This document shows positions 3,864 through 20,129 of a stretch of DNA of 20,219 bases, in pieces. Under the pieces are notes generated by a model that searched no databases, was not told the DNA's origin, and was given only the letters and a program-made list of their open reading frames with translations. The position numbers were made by a program, and so were the translations under genes. The DNA is from a virus. The DNA lies in IMG/VR virus record IMGVR_UViG_3300019760_000015, positions 1 to 20,219 of that record; one strand, written 5' to 3'. Every line of letters starts with the position of its first letter. Within the stretch, counting starts at the first letter, position 1.

Positions 3864-4463
3864 TTAGTTCAGTTTCTCTGTTATATCAAACCAGGAATGA
3901 GCTTTGGCAAGATAACCTAGTATTATAGATAAAATAGTTGCACCAATTGTGATATACTTCCAGAGTTTTAAGCCAGAATCAAGTTTTGCATTAATACTGG
4001 TTAGTTTACCATTATCAATATTTAACTGCCTTAGTTCTTCCTTTTTATCTTGGATGGTTTTTTCGTATTCGGCATTTTCATTCTGCAACTTTAAGTTTTT
4101 ATTCGTAAGAATTAGATTCTCTTCCTGAACCTGTTGAAACACATCTTCTTTTTCACTTTTCTCTTGCAACTCCTTATAGAACTTTTTGAATCCGCCATTA
4201 TTTTTTACTTCATTTCCCTTTTTCGAAAGTTTCCACCGAACATTACTAGCCTTAACCAATTCTATTAAACCAAATTCACTTAATGGTTCAAAAACAAGTG
4301 GCATTAATTCTCGACGATCAATTCCATATTTACGGGCGAGACCCATAGTATGCATACTTTTATGCTGTACCAAACTCAACGAATCTATCACCTCATGACA
4401 GATCTCAAGTTTCATTTCTTCAGTTAAGGGTTTGTATTCCTTTTCGCTCATTTCAAAACTCAT
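3864..4463 (-). CDS. Membrane-tethered protein with winged-helix-like N-terminus and coiled coil
   Basis: The 199-residue protein has three parts. Residues about 12-77 are a helical, winged-helix-like segment (KLEICHEVIDSL ... MGLARKYGIDRRELMPLVFEPLSEFGLIELVKASNVRWKLSKKGNEV) resembling small DNA-binding or phage regulatory modules. Residues about 85-160 form a long charged coiled coil. Residues about 168-187 form one transmembrane helix (YITIGATILSIILGYLAKA). It lies between the cassette palindrome at 4578-4757 and a terminator, and its AT-rich sequence differs from the surrounding structural genes. It is probably cargo (a moron) rather than a virion gene. A DNA-binding or ligand-sensing N-terminus joined to a membrane anchor suggests sensing or signalling, but this is inference. 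Confidence 0.7.
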   Translation of the reverse strand: MSFEMSEKEYKPLTEEMKLEICHEVIDSLSLVQHKSMHTMGLARKYGIDRRELMPLVFEPLSEFGLIELVKASNVRWKLSKKGNEVKNNGGFKKFYKELQEKSEKEDVFQQVQEENLILTNKNLKLQNENAEYEKTIQDKKEELRQLNIDNGKLTSINAKLDSGLKLWKYITIGATILSIILGYLAKAHSWFDITEKLN

Positions 4464-4577: not shown

Positions 4578-4757
4578 CAACGGTCTATGTATGTTTTCGT
4601 GCGGGACTTCAACGGACTGCCGTTTCAAGTTACCACAAGCCAAATTTGCGGTTTACCTTTTTATTCAAACGTCAAAATCGCAAATTTGGCGGTTTTTCAT
4701 TCAATGCTCAAAACTTTCAAAACTCTCCAAAACCCGCATGAAATATACATTTTGTTG
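4578..4757 (-). repeat. attC-like recombination site A (imperfect palindrome)
   Basis: The site is bounded by CAAC at 4578 and GTTG ending at 4757. Outer arms 4578-4605 and 4733-4757 pair imperfectly (CAAC then TATGTAT, TTTTCGTGCGGG against CAAC, AATGTAT, TTTCATGCGGG), with extra bases GGTC only on the left arm. An inner perfect 12-bp inverted repeat, GCCAAATTTGCG / CGCAAATTTGGC, lies at 4639-4650 and 4679-4690. Read on the minus strand, the gene-proximal edge is ACCCAAC, which matches the attC R'' consensus RYYYAAC. The asymmetric arms and the location immediately 3' of the cassette genes fit integron attC sites. No integrase is present in the window, so function is inferred from structure only. 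Confidence 0.75.
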
Positions 4758-4764
4758 GGTGGCG

Positions 4765-5490
4765 TTATTTATCGGACTCTATCAAAGATTGAGCTAAAGC
4801 ATTAGTTAATGATTTCCATAAATCCTGATGGTTTTTATATAATATTAATTTATTTGACTGCAAATCAAAAGGTATTGATTCAAATGATTTAGTGTCAGAA
4901 ATAAGTATTACAGGTTTTCCTACTGCATGAGCAATTCCTAATTCATAATAAACATTTGGATTTCTTCCATTTAGATTTGCTATTACAATTCGGGACGAGA
5001 GAATCTTCTCAAGAATGTATTTTAAAACATTTCCTTTTACAAAATCTTCATCACCTCTTGAGCATTTTAACCCAAGGTCATAACAGATTTTCTCTATATA
5101 CATAAATTCTTCTTTATAATCAGTATGAAAAGGAGTTAAGAAAAAGACCAAATCTTTTTGGATATTAATTTTTTCAATGTTCACTCCAAGATTTTCAAAG
5201 AAATTATATGAGAATGGCTTTGTTGAAGCTTTGAGTTGTTCGTTGTCGTTTTTATTTAGAAGTAGATGATTTACCTCTTGCCATCTTGATGAATCTGAAT
5301 ATAATTTATTATTTAGCTCATACATTTGACGTTCAATCCTCTCACGTAAATAGCTCAACTCTGCACGAGTTTCTCGTGCTTCATCTCTTGACTTTCTTTG
5401 TCTACTATTTATATAAAGAACAGTTGAAAAAATTACTGATATTATAGCAACTATAGGTATTATATCTTGAAATAAGTCTGTTAAATTCAT
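4765..5490 (-). CDS. Membrane-anchored TIR-like / nucleoside 2-deoxyribosyltransferase-like protein
   Basis: The 241-residue protein has an N-terminal transmembrane helix (about residues 9-28), a charged coiled coil (30-65) and a C-terminal alpha/beta domain (about 112-240). The domain carries IVIANLNGRNPNVYYELGIAHAVGKPVILISD at 168-199. The N-P-N-V-x-Y-E-L-G-I-A-H-A signature, with Glu183 as the probable catalytic residue, is the hallmark of the TIR-like/deoxyribosyltransferase-like superfamily; related proteins cleave N-glycosidic bonds of nucleotides or NAD. Membrane tethering and pairing with a four-helix membrane protein two bases upstream, on a mobile cassette, resemble a two-part defence module. 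The superfamily assignment is fairly sure; substrate and defence role are inference. Confidence 0.8.
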   Translation of the reverse strand: MNLTDLFQDIIPIVAIISVIFSTVLYINSRQRKSRDEARETRAELSYLRERIERQMYELNNKLYSDSSRWQEVNHLLLNKNDNEQLKASTKPFSYNFFENLGVNIEKINIQKDLVFFLTPFHTDYKEEFMYIEKICYDLGLKCSRGDEDFVKGNVLKYILEKILSSRIVIANLNGRNPNVYYELGIAHAVGKPVILISDTKSFESIPFDLQSNKLILYKNHQDLWKSLTNALAQSLIESDK

Positions 5491-5492
5491 AA

Positions 5493-5933
5493 TTACTTAA
5501 TATTAATGCAATTTAAAATATACCACATAAAAGAAACTGAAAGAGTTGTGTTGATTATACCATAAACACCTATTAAAAAGCTGTTTGTAGTATCTTTAAA
5601 ATACTGATTTAAAGCTAACCTTCTTAAGGTTGAATTAACTAATGCTAGAACAATGCAAAACAATATCATTATCCTACCAAATACTGTAGACTCAATATCT
5701 AAAAAGAAGTATGTAAACACAAAAGTTATTCCTATGAAACCAAAGTCTACGGGAAATTCTAAAATAAACTCCAATATAGATTTTTTATCAAAATTGTTTC
5801 CAAAAAAATATTTCAAGGCATATATTATTACTAATAACAGCAATGGAACTATTATTACTTCATGGTTCGATAAATATTCGACAGAGCCTTGAACTACTGA
5901 TGTTGAATCTTTTGCTATCGTTTCTTTAATCAT
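5493..5933 (-). CDS. Four-transmembrane-helix protein, partner of the TIR/DRT-like effector
   Basis: The 146-residue product is almost wholly membrane-embedded. Hydrophobic helices lie at about residues 26-46, 62-80, 85-105 and 118-141, separated by short polar loops (for example NNFDKKS at 50-56 and NQYFKDTTN near 110-118). No known family is recognisable. It is the first gene of the cassette and ends two bases before the effector start (stop TAA, TT, ATG), so the two are surely co-translated. Its leader from the cassette edge is only about 56 bases. It could be a pore, a sensor or a scaffold holding the effector at the membrane. Confidence 0.75.
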   Translation of the reverse strand: MIKETIAKDSTSVVQGSVEYLSNHEVIIVPLLLLVIIYALKYFFGNNFDKKSILEFILEFPVDFGFIGITFVFTYFFLDIESTVFGRIMILFCIVLALVNSTLRRLALNQYFKDTTNSFLIGVYGIINTTLSVSFMWYILNCINIK

Positions 5934-5986
5934 TTAATATTCAATTCTATGTATTTGTTAATATTATGGTTATTTATAATGACACC

Positions 5987-6113
5987 CAACGTCTGGCTAT
6001 AGTTATTGAATATACTTCGACTATATAAGTTGAACATACACCGCCAAAATCAAGGAGTATGTTCAACTCATACAAGCATTATATATTTATTTAACTCTAT
6101 TCAAAAATAGTTA
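5987..6113 (-). repeat. attC-like recombination site C, upstream border of cassette 1
   Basis: A palindrome of about 127 bp begins at CAAC (5987-5990). An inner perfect 12-bp inverted repeat AGTTGAACATAC / GTATGTTCAACT lies at 6028-6039 and 6057-6068, with a 17-base loop. The outer arms pair less well (TATAGTTATTGAATA against TATTTTTGAATA). The far edge on the minus strand is ATTTAAC, matching RYYYAAC. The CGTTG edge sits where the previous site would meet cassette 1. The outer boundary is less certain than at sites A, B and D. Confidence 0.55.
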
Positions 6114-6370
6114 AATTGGAATATATTCCAATCAAACAGAAGAAAACTCCTATTAGTTTTTTTGTTCACCTCGTAGAGAATGGCCCAAGAGAGAAGGCCC
6201 AGGTGAATGGAAATAGATCACATCATCATTATCAGTTAGGGTATTTTGGAACAAAATTCAGGGCATCGCCCCGGGGCCACGCACCGCCCTCAACTGATAA
6301 TGATACCTTTTCCCGGAGCGCAGCGGAGGGCGCGCGCAAAAGCACGGCCCTGGGAGAGAGAGAAAAACTT
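6114..6370. other. GC-rich structured spacer (nested hairpins) downstream of the ArdC-N-like gene
   Basis: This 257-bp gene-free stretch contrasts with the AT-rich DNA on its left. It contains a perfect 13-bp inverted repeat ATCATTATCAGTT / AACTGATAATGAT at 6225-6237 and 6292-6304, flanked by GGG/CCC. Its loop contains GGGCATCGCCC (6261-6271). A second hairpin pairs TTCACCT (6165-6171) with AGGTGAA (6201-6207) and encloses two GGCCC blocks. It could be a structured RNA, a transcription terminator region or a nicking/recombination site of a mobile element. Only the pairings are certain. Confidence 0.5.
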
Positions 6371-17734: not shown

Positions 17735-18214
17735 TTGGATTCAATTTAACAGAATCGCCAAATATGTCCCTAAATTGATGTCACAGCAAAAAAACACCCC
17801 ACCCCTCTTGTCGTTAAAAGGGACACCACTTTTGTAATTATCCGTTTTTTTGCCACTGTAAGTGGCGATTTACCAAACAGATACACCGTTACAAAAGTTT
17901 GTAACCCACCAAATTCAAGTTTGTAACCAACTGATTTACTGACATTACAAAAAGAGGTGGTTTTTGTACGAATTGTAATCAGTGTTTTTTGCTCATTTAT
18001 TAAGTCCAGATAAAAATACTAATGTCCCTAAAATTACGAACTCAAATCAGGTTTGTAACTTTTTTGTAATGGCTTTAACCCCTTTTGAATCTTCCAATTG
18101 AATAATATTAATTACTAAATACAAAAAAATAGTGAAGTTGGGGTTAAAGGGGGAAGGGGCTAAAGGCGGCGGCGCTAACTAGTTTTTTAGTTAGCCGGTT
18201 TTTGTTAAGCTGGT
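17735..18214. promoter_or_regulatory. Intergenic region with TTTGTAAC and TTACAAA repeats
   Basis: GTTACAAAAGTTTGTAAC at 17888-17905 is a palindrome. Related copies follow: AAGTTTGTAACC (17917-17928), ACATTACAAAAAG (17943-17955) and GTTTGTAACTTTTTTGTAAT (18051-18070). The direct repeat ATGTCCCTAAA occurs at 17764-17774 and 18022-18032. No gene is seen. The cluster lies between the divergent structural operon and the plus-strand genes and is likely a regulator-binding or origin region. Confidence 0.5.
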
Positions 18215-18736: not shown

Positions 18737-18926
18737 CAACGGTTAGTATAAGAAACGTAAGTGATTCCGAAGCACTTACCTGTCAATTTACACTGAGCCA
18801 AATTTGCGATTAGACACAAATTTAATGTTTTAAAACAAACCGTCAAATCGCAGATTTGGCGGAGCTGATTAAATGTGCAAACGCCTCGTAAACCACTGAG
18901 CCACTTATGTTTTTTATACATTGTTG
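18737..18926 (-). repeat. attC-like recombination site B (imperfect palindrome)
   Basis: The site runs from CAAC at 18737 to GTTG at 18926. Outer arms pair as CAAC, then TATAAGAAACGTAAGTG against TATAAAAAACATAAGTG, with extra bases (GGTTAG) again on the left arm. Inner arms GCCAAATTTGCG (18797-18808) and CGCAGATTTGGC (18849-18860) match those of site A except for one base. The shared CGTCAAA and TCGCA(A/G)ATTTGGCGG segments show that A and B are related. On the minus strand the outer edge of this site is CAACTGGCTACAAC, complementary to the cassette start. Confidence 0.8.
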
Positions 18927-18936
18927 TAGCCAGTTG

Positions 18937-19425
18937 TTACTCACAGTTTAAAAATGATTCTACTAAATATCTGCCCATTTCACTATCCTTAATGGTATGA
19001 TAATCGACTTCAATCTTCTTTTCTAAGATAGGAGTATATCCTTTATCTTTTCCTGATGTTCCCCCATTCCTTGTCGGCTCAAAGGTTATTAAATCATTAT
19101 CCCTACATATATTTACTGACCTTGAATTCAGCATTTGTTTCTTAATAGAGGAAAATCCAGTTAGCTTTTTATAGTTTTCTTGCATTTTCGTAAAATCAAT
19201 TTGCTTTTCCTTAACCGATTTAGATAACTTTAAATGCTCCAGAACCAAATCAGAAATTTTCCCTACACTTATCGGTTTAGTTTCTATTGTCAATATATCC
19301 GTTCGTGTCCAAACCCATGATTCTAGTTGAAAATATGTTTCAAACACAACTTTATCTGGATAATCTACTGCTACCACCAGTTGTTTAATTTTTTTTTCTT
19401 TTTTAAACTTGAAAAACTTAATCAT
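18937..19425 (-). CDS. Unknown cytoplasmic protein of cassette 2
   Basis: The 162-residue protein begins with a Lys/Phe-rich basic stretch (MIKFFKFKKEKKIKQLVV) and has no signal peptide or transmembrane helix. Most of the rest alternates strands and helices (VVAVDYPDKVVFETYFQLESWVW; ISDLVLEHLKLSKSVKEKQIDFTKMQENYKKLTGF). A TRNGGTSGKDKG loop lies near residues 118-129. No family is recognised. Its ATG overlaps the lipoprotein stop by four bases (ATGA), so the two proteins are made together. Its stop TAA lies directly against the palindrome edge, as is usual for cassette genes. Confidence 0.7.
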   Translation of the reverse strand: MIKFFKFKKEKKIKQLVVAVDYPDKVVFETYFQLESWVWTRTDILTIETKPISVGKISDLVLEHLKLSKSVKEKQIDFTKMQENYKKLTGFSSIKKQMLNSRSVNICRDNDLITFEPTRNGGTSGKDKGYTPILEKKIEVDYHTIKDSEMGRYLVESFLNCE

Positions 19426-19973
19426 GGGTTGTGAAATGAGGTCATAATTATTTTACCATTCTCGGTTATTTGCATGATTTCAGGATGTTCAGAATCTTTG
19501 CAGTGTTTCTCAATAATCAGCTTATTATTAATTGAGCCAAAACAATATTTTTCCGTTCTTCTATTCCAAATTGCAAAATCATAAGAATCTATTATTTCCC
19601 AATCAAGCGAATAAGTTCTAAGTGTAAATTTGTAATCTCGACCAATTGTATCATTCCCATCTCTGAATATCACATGAAGCTTAAAGCTGTCTGTCCTGTG
19701 AATTTCTCCGAAGTCCTTAAATATCGTTGGTTCAGGTAGCACTGTGTCATTTGAAAAGATATTAGATTCAAGGTATCTTGTCTCTTTTATTTCTTCCCAA
19801 TTCAGGAATAATCGAACGCTATCAGCTGAAATCGGTAATATATTTGTTGACTCAGCCATGAATAAAAAATCACTTCGGTGTTCTGTGTTTTCATTAATCC
19901 AAAATAGCTTATCTGATTCCGATTGACAGGAGAAGAATGATAAAGTCAGTATTAATAATCCGTATATTTTCAT
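19422..19973 (-). CDS. Predicted lipoprotein of cassette 2
   Basis: The 183-residue protein has a typical lipoprotein signal: MKIYGLLILTLSFFSC, with basic Lys2, a hydrophobic core and the lipobox Cys at residue 16. The rest has alternating strands typical of a secreted beta-rich domain (IFKDFGEIHRTDSFKLHVIFRDGNDTIGRDYKFTLRTYSLDWEIIDSYDF) and no further membrane segment. In Bacteroidota such a protein would be anchored in an outer or inner membrane. It may be an immunity, surface exclusion or receptor-blocking protein, but I do not recognise the family. It is the first gene of the cassette and is coupled to the next gene. Confidence 0.7.
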   Translation of the reverse strand: MKIYGLLILTLSFFSCQSESDKLFWINENTEHRSDFLFMAESTNILPISADSVRLFLNWEEIKETRYLESNIFSNDTVLPEPTIFKDFGEIHRTDSFKLHVIFRDGNDTIGRDYKFTLRTYSLDWEIIDSYDFAIWNRRTEKYCFGSINNKLIIEKHCKDSEHPEIMQITENGKIIMTSFHNP

Positions 19974-20002
19974 TTTATGCAGTTCGGTTCTTCAATTGGC
20001 TA

Positions 20003-20129
20003 CAACGGCCTGCGGTATGAAACGTTGCGCATTTTGAAATACAAACTTATCAGCCCGCTAAGCCGCCTGTTAAATGTTATTTCGTTCAAATATAGCTCTA
20101 TCCGCGCAATGTTTTATGACCGCGTGTTG
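20003..20129 (-). repeat. attC-like recombination site D, upstream border of cassette 2
   Basis: CAAC at 20003 and GTTG at 20126-20129 bound a 127-bp imperfect palindrome. Outer arms pair as CAACGGC, then GCGGT-ATGAAACGTTGCGC against CAACA, then GCGGTCATAAAACATTGCGC, with extra bases on the left arm as in A and B. The minus-strand far edge is GTTCAAC, matching RYYYAAC. It ends a previous cassette and adjoins cassette 2. No shared inner core with sites A and B is evident. Confidence 0.75.

Follow-up and report, generated by a model that had tools for sequence, protein, structure and literature searches.

A phage-borne gene cassette probably belonging to a Bacteroidota integron-like system with a non-canonical integrase

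Near one end of the viral record IMGVR_UViG_3300019760_000015 (20,219 nt, analysed in full and called the window here) lies a two-gene stretch whose ends are complementary to one another. An initial annotation, made without reference to any integrase, took this complementarity for the specific signature of an integron gene cassette. This raises the questions of whether the stretch is a mobile cassette, to what kind of recombination system it would belong, and how it comes to lie in a viral genome. The reading that we favour, at a probability of about 0.82, is that it is a mobile cassette of a Bacteroidota integron-like system with a non-canonical integrase, carried as phage cargo.

The ends, site and genes of the cassette

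On the minus strand 13 of 14 positions are complementary between the start of the stretch (cassette 2, Table 1), GTTGTAGCCAATTG beginning at 20006, and its end, CAACTGGCTACAAC finishing at 18923; the sole mismatch is A against G at position 11. When 15,696 GTT/AAC pairs lying 200-3000 bp apart on the minus strand of the window were tested, only cassette 2 reached 13/14. Six pairs reached 12/14, one of them being a second unit, cassette 1. The annotated anatomy is borne out in its other details too. The last gene abuts the edge of the palindrome, its stop codon TAA (18939-18937) being followed directly by CAACTGG at 18936, and 32-33 nt of leader separate the cassette start from the ATG at 19973. 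Upstream, too, the boundary is formed by a complete palindromic site (20129-20003); cassette 2 is thus flanked by two complete sites, as a member of an array that runs towards the end of the contig.

Table 1. Positions of the two cassettes and of their parts in the window
Feature	Position	Strand	Basis or remark
Cassette 1 body, same family, start GTTGGGTGTCATTA, end complement GTTGGGTGGCGTTA	4754..5990	-	own ends 12/14
Cassette 1 own attC-like site, CAACAAAATGTATATTTCATGCGGG...CCCGCACGAAAACATACATAGACCGTTG	4578..4757	-	detector score 12
Cassette 1 gene, TIR/deoxyribosyltransferase-like effector	4765..5490	-	Pfam PF05014 below cut-off; PADLOC TIR effector E 2.7e-8
Membrane-protein-like ORF preceding cassette 1 TIR-like gene	5493-5933		
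Cassette 2, 1266 bp, two genes and own site	18740..20005	-	own-end complementarity 13/14; ends of homologous sites elsewhere
Cassette 2 limits, TT after G^TT to G of downstream GTTG	20005 to 18740	-	sequence
Cassette 2 start, R'-like arm GTTGTAGCCAATTG	19993..20006	-	fits family pattern, A against G at position 11
Cassette 2 ORF, 183 aa, lipoprotein-like N-terminus MKIYGLLILTLSFFSCQ	19422..19973	-	no family
Cassette 2 ORF, 162 aa, no known function	18937..19425	-	weak phrog_26910 match
Cassette 2 end, R''-like arm CAACTGGCTACAAC	18923..18936	-	sequence, own-end pairing
Cassette 2 own attC-like site, 190 bp palindrome, type A	18737..18926	-	fold, Persicobacter plasmid matches, alignment
attC-like site of preceding cassette, CAACACGCGGTCATAAAACATTGCGC...GCGCAACGTTTCATACCGCAGGCCGTTG	20003..20129	-	site detector score 13

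The palindrome (18926-18737) had been expected to fold as single-stranded DNA, and it does so with a calculated energy of -25.7 kcal/mol, compared with a mean of -17.5 for shuffled sequences (z -3.0; 1 of 200 shuffles was as good). The opposite strand, which integron convention calls the 'bottom' strand, forms the better fold (-28.8). The site has a G^TT core, an R stem and an inner arm, with a spacer that is unequal on the two sides, AAT against TAACC. Its core GTTGTAG differs from GTTRRRY.

No homologue of the 183-aa protein was found in 395 Bacteroidota genomes or in viral contigs, and none of the 162-aa protein in the same 395 genomes; a DNA search of phage records gave no match. With no such homologue for comparison, movement of exactly this unit is presumptive. 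Searches against Rfam and for tRNA also returned no matches; neither a known RNA nor a tRNA attachment site is thus involved.

Cassettes within a phage genome

Cassette 2 sits in a phage genome, a setting that the initial annotation had missed; the window encodes a terminase, a portal protein and a head-protease. Three cassette sites lie among its phage genes, a feature of phage CALINs. Cassette 1 is flanked by phage genes on both sides, and its ends show the same position-11 mismatch as those of cassette 2, together with one at position 9. The site before cassette 1 (5990-6130) looks damaged; its 3' half ends in ATAGCCAGACGTTG and the matching 5' outer arm is missing, while an inner inverted repeat (6009-6087) is still present. 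Between the cassette 1 site and the portal-side phage genes there is an unrelated 199-aa ORF (3864-4463) with a terminator-like hairpin after it. This ORF may be a cassette minus its lost site.

Related phages carry other cassettes of the same kind, with TIR genes, at both of these phage positions. In the relative L005 the cassette 1 position holds a different complete cassette with a TIR-TPR gene, whose own ends match at 13 of 16 positions. In L024 the cassette 2 position holds a CAP12/Pycsar-TIR cassette (own-end match 14/16); next comes another TIR gene, and beyond it a 992-aa phage primase resembling that of L005. Both cassettes adjoin the same phage genes as do those of the window. At the cassette 1 position L008 and L024 have no room for a cassette. 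We note that a noncoding stretch with many TTACAA/TTGTAA words (17750-18170, and 2732-2925 of L005) adjoins a cassette position and is conserved; it may serve the replication or control of the phage.

Cassette 2 lies at the end of the contig, after a 96-aa ORF on the opposite strand and a terminator-like hairpin, and no phage gene is seen beyond it, so that it might be host DNA flanking a prophage and thus lie outside the phage genome. We regard this as unlikely, given that cassette 1 is placed between phage genes and that the cassettes at the cassette 2 position of L024 are bounded on their far side by the phage primase.

No array-type integrase (described below) was present in the 10 related viral records searched, and the phage therefore probably relies on the integrase of its host. 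Four other viral contigs of 55-96 kb (L133, L134, L135 and L138) contain rows of small cassettes, again with no array integrase in the records. The position-11 mismatch is found in the small cassettes of L133, L135 and L138; in L138 the cassette genes are antisense to the orientation of the sites.

Foldable sites recur with different genes behind an integrase

The initial annotation had pictured a unit that might occur at other locations or as a circle. What recurs is the palindromic site, with other genes; cassette 2 as a whole unit was not found elsewhere in the data searched, and neither a circular form nor a recombination product was seen. A plasmid DNA search recovered the palindrome over its whole length from three Persicobacter plasmids, with identities of 92, 89.5 and 78% and with unlike flanks. 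In the best match (L002) the site is one member of a succession of units built as GTTGxxx-gene-xxxCAAC-palindrome-CCGTTG, and one 749-bp cassette is present twice in this array, the copies being 100% identical with exact ends.

A scan for the 3' arm of the site across the genomes of 84,980 species of bacteria and archaea gave 67 loci, most of which are in Bacteroidota and have clear sites, with two types of palindrome. The type found in the window recurs in many Bacteroidota genomes, among them genera of Flavobacteriales, Marinilabiliales and Cytophagales. One locus, L031, was rejected, the pattern having matched by chance within a coding gene. Standard alignment of palindromes is unreliable. 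In an alignment of the cassette 2 site with 29 others (30 sites) the arms AACAATGTATAAAAAACATA...TACGTTTCTTATAC are nearly fixed, and two-sided compensatory change is seen at 10 of 28 pairs, although several of these separate the two types and may represent few events. The sites are 120-190 bp long, with an inner arm GTATAA...TTATAC. The bottom strand is the better folder in 157 of 178 sites, and fixed A.C mismatches in the arms of the top strand become G.T on the bottom strand.

In 26 genomes picked by site motif, several integrases share a contig with the sites. In L002 and L112-L123 the cassettes are arranged in tandem in one orientation, each gene being followed by its own site. In the integrase loci examined, the array lies directly downstream of a tyrosine integrase on the same strand; the exception is the divergent locus of Zobellia (L114). 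The first cassette begins 0-111 nt past the integrase stop codon in 15 loci, and short inverted repeats lie upstream of several integrase-array junctions, in the manner of an attI site. A further 20 integrase homologues formed an independent set, drawn from random Bacteroidota genomes irrespective of sites; 13 of these loci had sites, and 21/21 of the sites were downstream on the same strand. No site was detected at the other seven homologues, some of which are at contig ends. The detector found 59 sites in 198 kb of integrase loci, compared with 2 in 156 kb of shuffled sequence, and none in 150 kb around XerC/XerD genes (12 control loci from the same genomes as the independent set). A close homologue of the array integrase is present in 93 of 296 sampled Bacteroidota genomes (~31%). 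The integrase of Zobellia uliginosa (L114:16520-17374), divergent from its array, has only 284 aa and is unlike those of the other loci. Cytophagales bacterium Alg240-R148 encodes the array-type integrase at least three times, with two copies lying well away from the array that was examined.

The start of each of 149 cassettes was compared with its own end and with the end of the preceding cassette. At positions 4-10 own ends match in ~73% and neighbouring ends in 38-44%. At position 11 the match falls to only 4%, with A at the start and G in the complement of the end, while at positions 12-13 own ends match again (76/70%). Some cassettes were merged by missed sites, which probably accounts for the poor matches. 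As judged from sequence, the pairing of start with end is a property of the cassette and not of the site in place, and the position-11 mismatch is a hallmark of the family that cassette 2 fits exactly. Extended complementarity of own ends had been a candidate for a family-specific feature, and was rejected because class 1 and canonical Bacteroidota cassettes have it too; only the position-11 mismatch is retained as the hallmark. The self-complementary ends are thus present as annotated, but cannot alone single out the system.

The array integrases differ from IntI in their core. The spacing from GKGxKDR to HxLRH is 58-63 residues in 28 array integrases, 100 in 21 IntI proteins and 64-70 in 12 XerC/D proteins, from which it follows that the array integrases lack the additional domain of IntI (~40 residues). 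That domain has been described as specific to integron integrases and as needed for attC recombination (PMC9668308, PMC4792948). Against TIGR02249 the array integrases score 172-227 (cut-off 265), with profile positions ~181-238 unmatched. Most of the 26 site-motif genomes have tyrosine recombinases that match the integron-integrase model in two pieces minus the middle, well above the level of XerC/D. The best NCBIfam match is NF040815 (XerA-type). In a tree the array integrases, IntI and XerC/D are each set off by a branch, and the array integrases fall with IntI, apart from the 12 sampled Xer proteins, with support of 100/99, under a midpoint root and limited sampling. We tentatively take them to be the sister group of IntI, tentatively because of the midpoint root and the absence of archaeal XerA from the tree.

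Might cassette 2 instead be a canonical integron cassette, with an attC of the ordinary kind and a canonical IntI to move it? Such integrases are present in the phylum, 84 of 296 Bacteroidota genomes having one that scores above the curated cut-off; this refutes an earlier supposition that sub-cut-off TIGR02249 matches were a sign of no true IntI there. They are commoner in random genomes (e.g. L182-L201) than the literature consulted suggests, and several of the loci have divergent classical arrays with a classical attC such as TAACAAGCGTTTCAAGCGGAC...CCGCTTAAACGCCGGGTCGTTA. Canonical Bacteroidota cassettes share the own-end complementarity. Moreover, IntI1 recombines one site of the flavobacterial (Polaribacter) phage P12002L, recombinants being obtained only when the bottom strand was delivered (PMC9892861), although the one to few sites resembling the window type in that genome may not include the site assayed. 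Yet the window type sits in arrays of the other integrase, canonical IntI exceeded the cut-off in 0 of the 26 site-motif genomes, and the length, inner arm and position-11 mismatch of the window site are unlike those of canonical sites. We therefore consider this explanation improbable. As canonical IntI arrays and the array-type integrase are both found in Bacteroidota, there are two systems in the phylum, and the window falls within the second.

A further rival holds that the palindromes are MITE- or REP-like repeats moving alone, with cassette 2 being phage or host DNA caught between two of them. They are indeed dispersed, conserved and AT-rich, and the array integrase is absent from the phage records searched. 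This reading is nevertheless very improbable, as it leaves unexplained the 13 bp outside the palindrome that pair with the other end of their own unit and not with the neighbour, the common orientation of the sites behind the integrase, and the exact duplication of a whole cassette.

Cassette 2 is thus an integron-type cassette, but not a canonical integron cassette. The annotated integron-type signature holds for its anatomy (i.e. self-complementary ends, G^TT boundary, gene followed by site, arrays behind an integrase and an attI-like junction), but not for membership of the canonical IntI/attC family, because an integrase without the additional domain and a codirectional array set the system apart from a canonical integron.

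Proposed mechanism and relation to known systems

In the mechanism that we propose, the host chromosome would carry an IntI-related integrase directly before an attI-like junction, with a codirectional tandem cassette array behind it, each unit comprising one or a few genes and then a foldable site of 120-190 bp. Excision at G^TT would release a circle in which the cassette's own start and end pair over ~13 bp, completing the R stem of the site; for cassette 2 the predicted junction links ...CAACTGGCTACAAC-site-CCG to TTGTAGCC... The folded site, probably as bottom strand, would be the substrate of the integrase, which would put the circle back into the attI-like site, the site of another cassette or a rare site elsewhere, a phage genome being one example. 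The host integrase would act in trans on phage-borne cassettes, and phage transfer would then spread cassettes between cells.

Integrases of a lineage adjacent to IntI, lacking the domain, before arrays of foldable cassettes bear on how integrons arose, and it is for this that the locus is of high interest. The origin of the additional domain has been described as a chicken-egg paradox, in which the domain is useless without attC and attC useless without the domain (Escudero et al., PMC4792948). The lineage makes this question directly testable, and the system may show integrons as they were before the domain evolved. For the broader proposal we see an even chance: that there is a second gene-cassette system common to Bacteroidota and their phages, a living relative of the pre-domain integron, whose integrase is a sister of IntI with no additional domain and recombines long folded sites, and in which phages ferry cassettes, several with TIR immune genes, between cells. 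The phage link is a possible route for the movement of cassettes between hosts. With a close homologue in such a share of the sampled genomes, a large pool of cassette genes may be missed by tools based on canonical attC; published attC taxon models include none for Bacteroidetes (listing in PMC8352920). Searches of the open-access literature for Bacteroidota integrons, palindromic cassettes and non-IntI integrases yielded no description of the present system, which we regard as a variant of the integron-type cassette system.

With canonical chromosomal integrons (class 1, Vibrio and Bacteroidota IntI) the system shares an integrase with an attI-like junction and tandem one-way cassettes, together with the G^TT boundary, a gene followed by a foldable site, self-complementary cassette ends and better folding of the bottom strand. 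It differs in having an integrase without the additional domain and an array that runs in the same direction as the integrase, most integrons being arranged otherwise. Unlike canonical attC, the sites are 120-190 bp long, with GTATAA/TTATAC inner arms and a conserved A against G at position 11 of the stem.

In the reverse integrons of Treponema the integrase and cassettes point the same way, and arrays of the window type are similarly codirectional. In Treponema, integron integrases with attC have been reported; by contrast, the array integrases described here are without the additional domain. In that respect they resemble XerA, XerC and XerD, being two-domain tyrosine recombinases. XerC/D, however, function in dimer resolution and showed no link to arrays in the 12 control loci, and the array integrases group with IntI in the tree.

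A parallel to the setting in the window is provided by the CALINs reported in phages by Qi et al. 2023 (PMC9892861), which were found with canonical attC models and include that of Polaribacter phage P12002L. Both are cassette-like units without an integrase inside phage genomes, flavobacterial phage included. Unlike those CALINs, the unit described here is tied to a different integrase lineage, and the relatives of the phage show cassettes exchanged at fixed phage positions.
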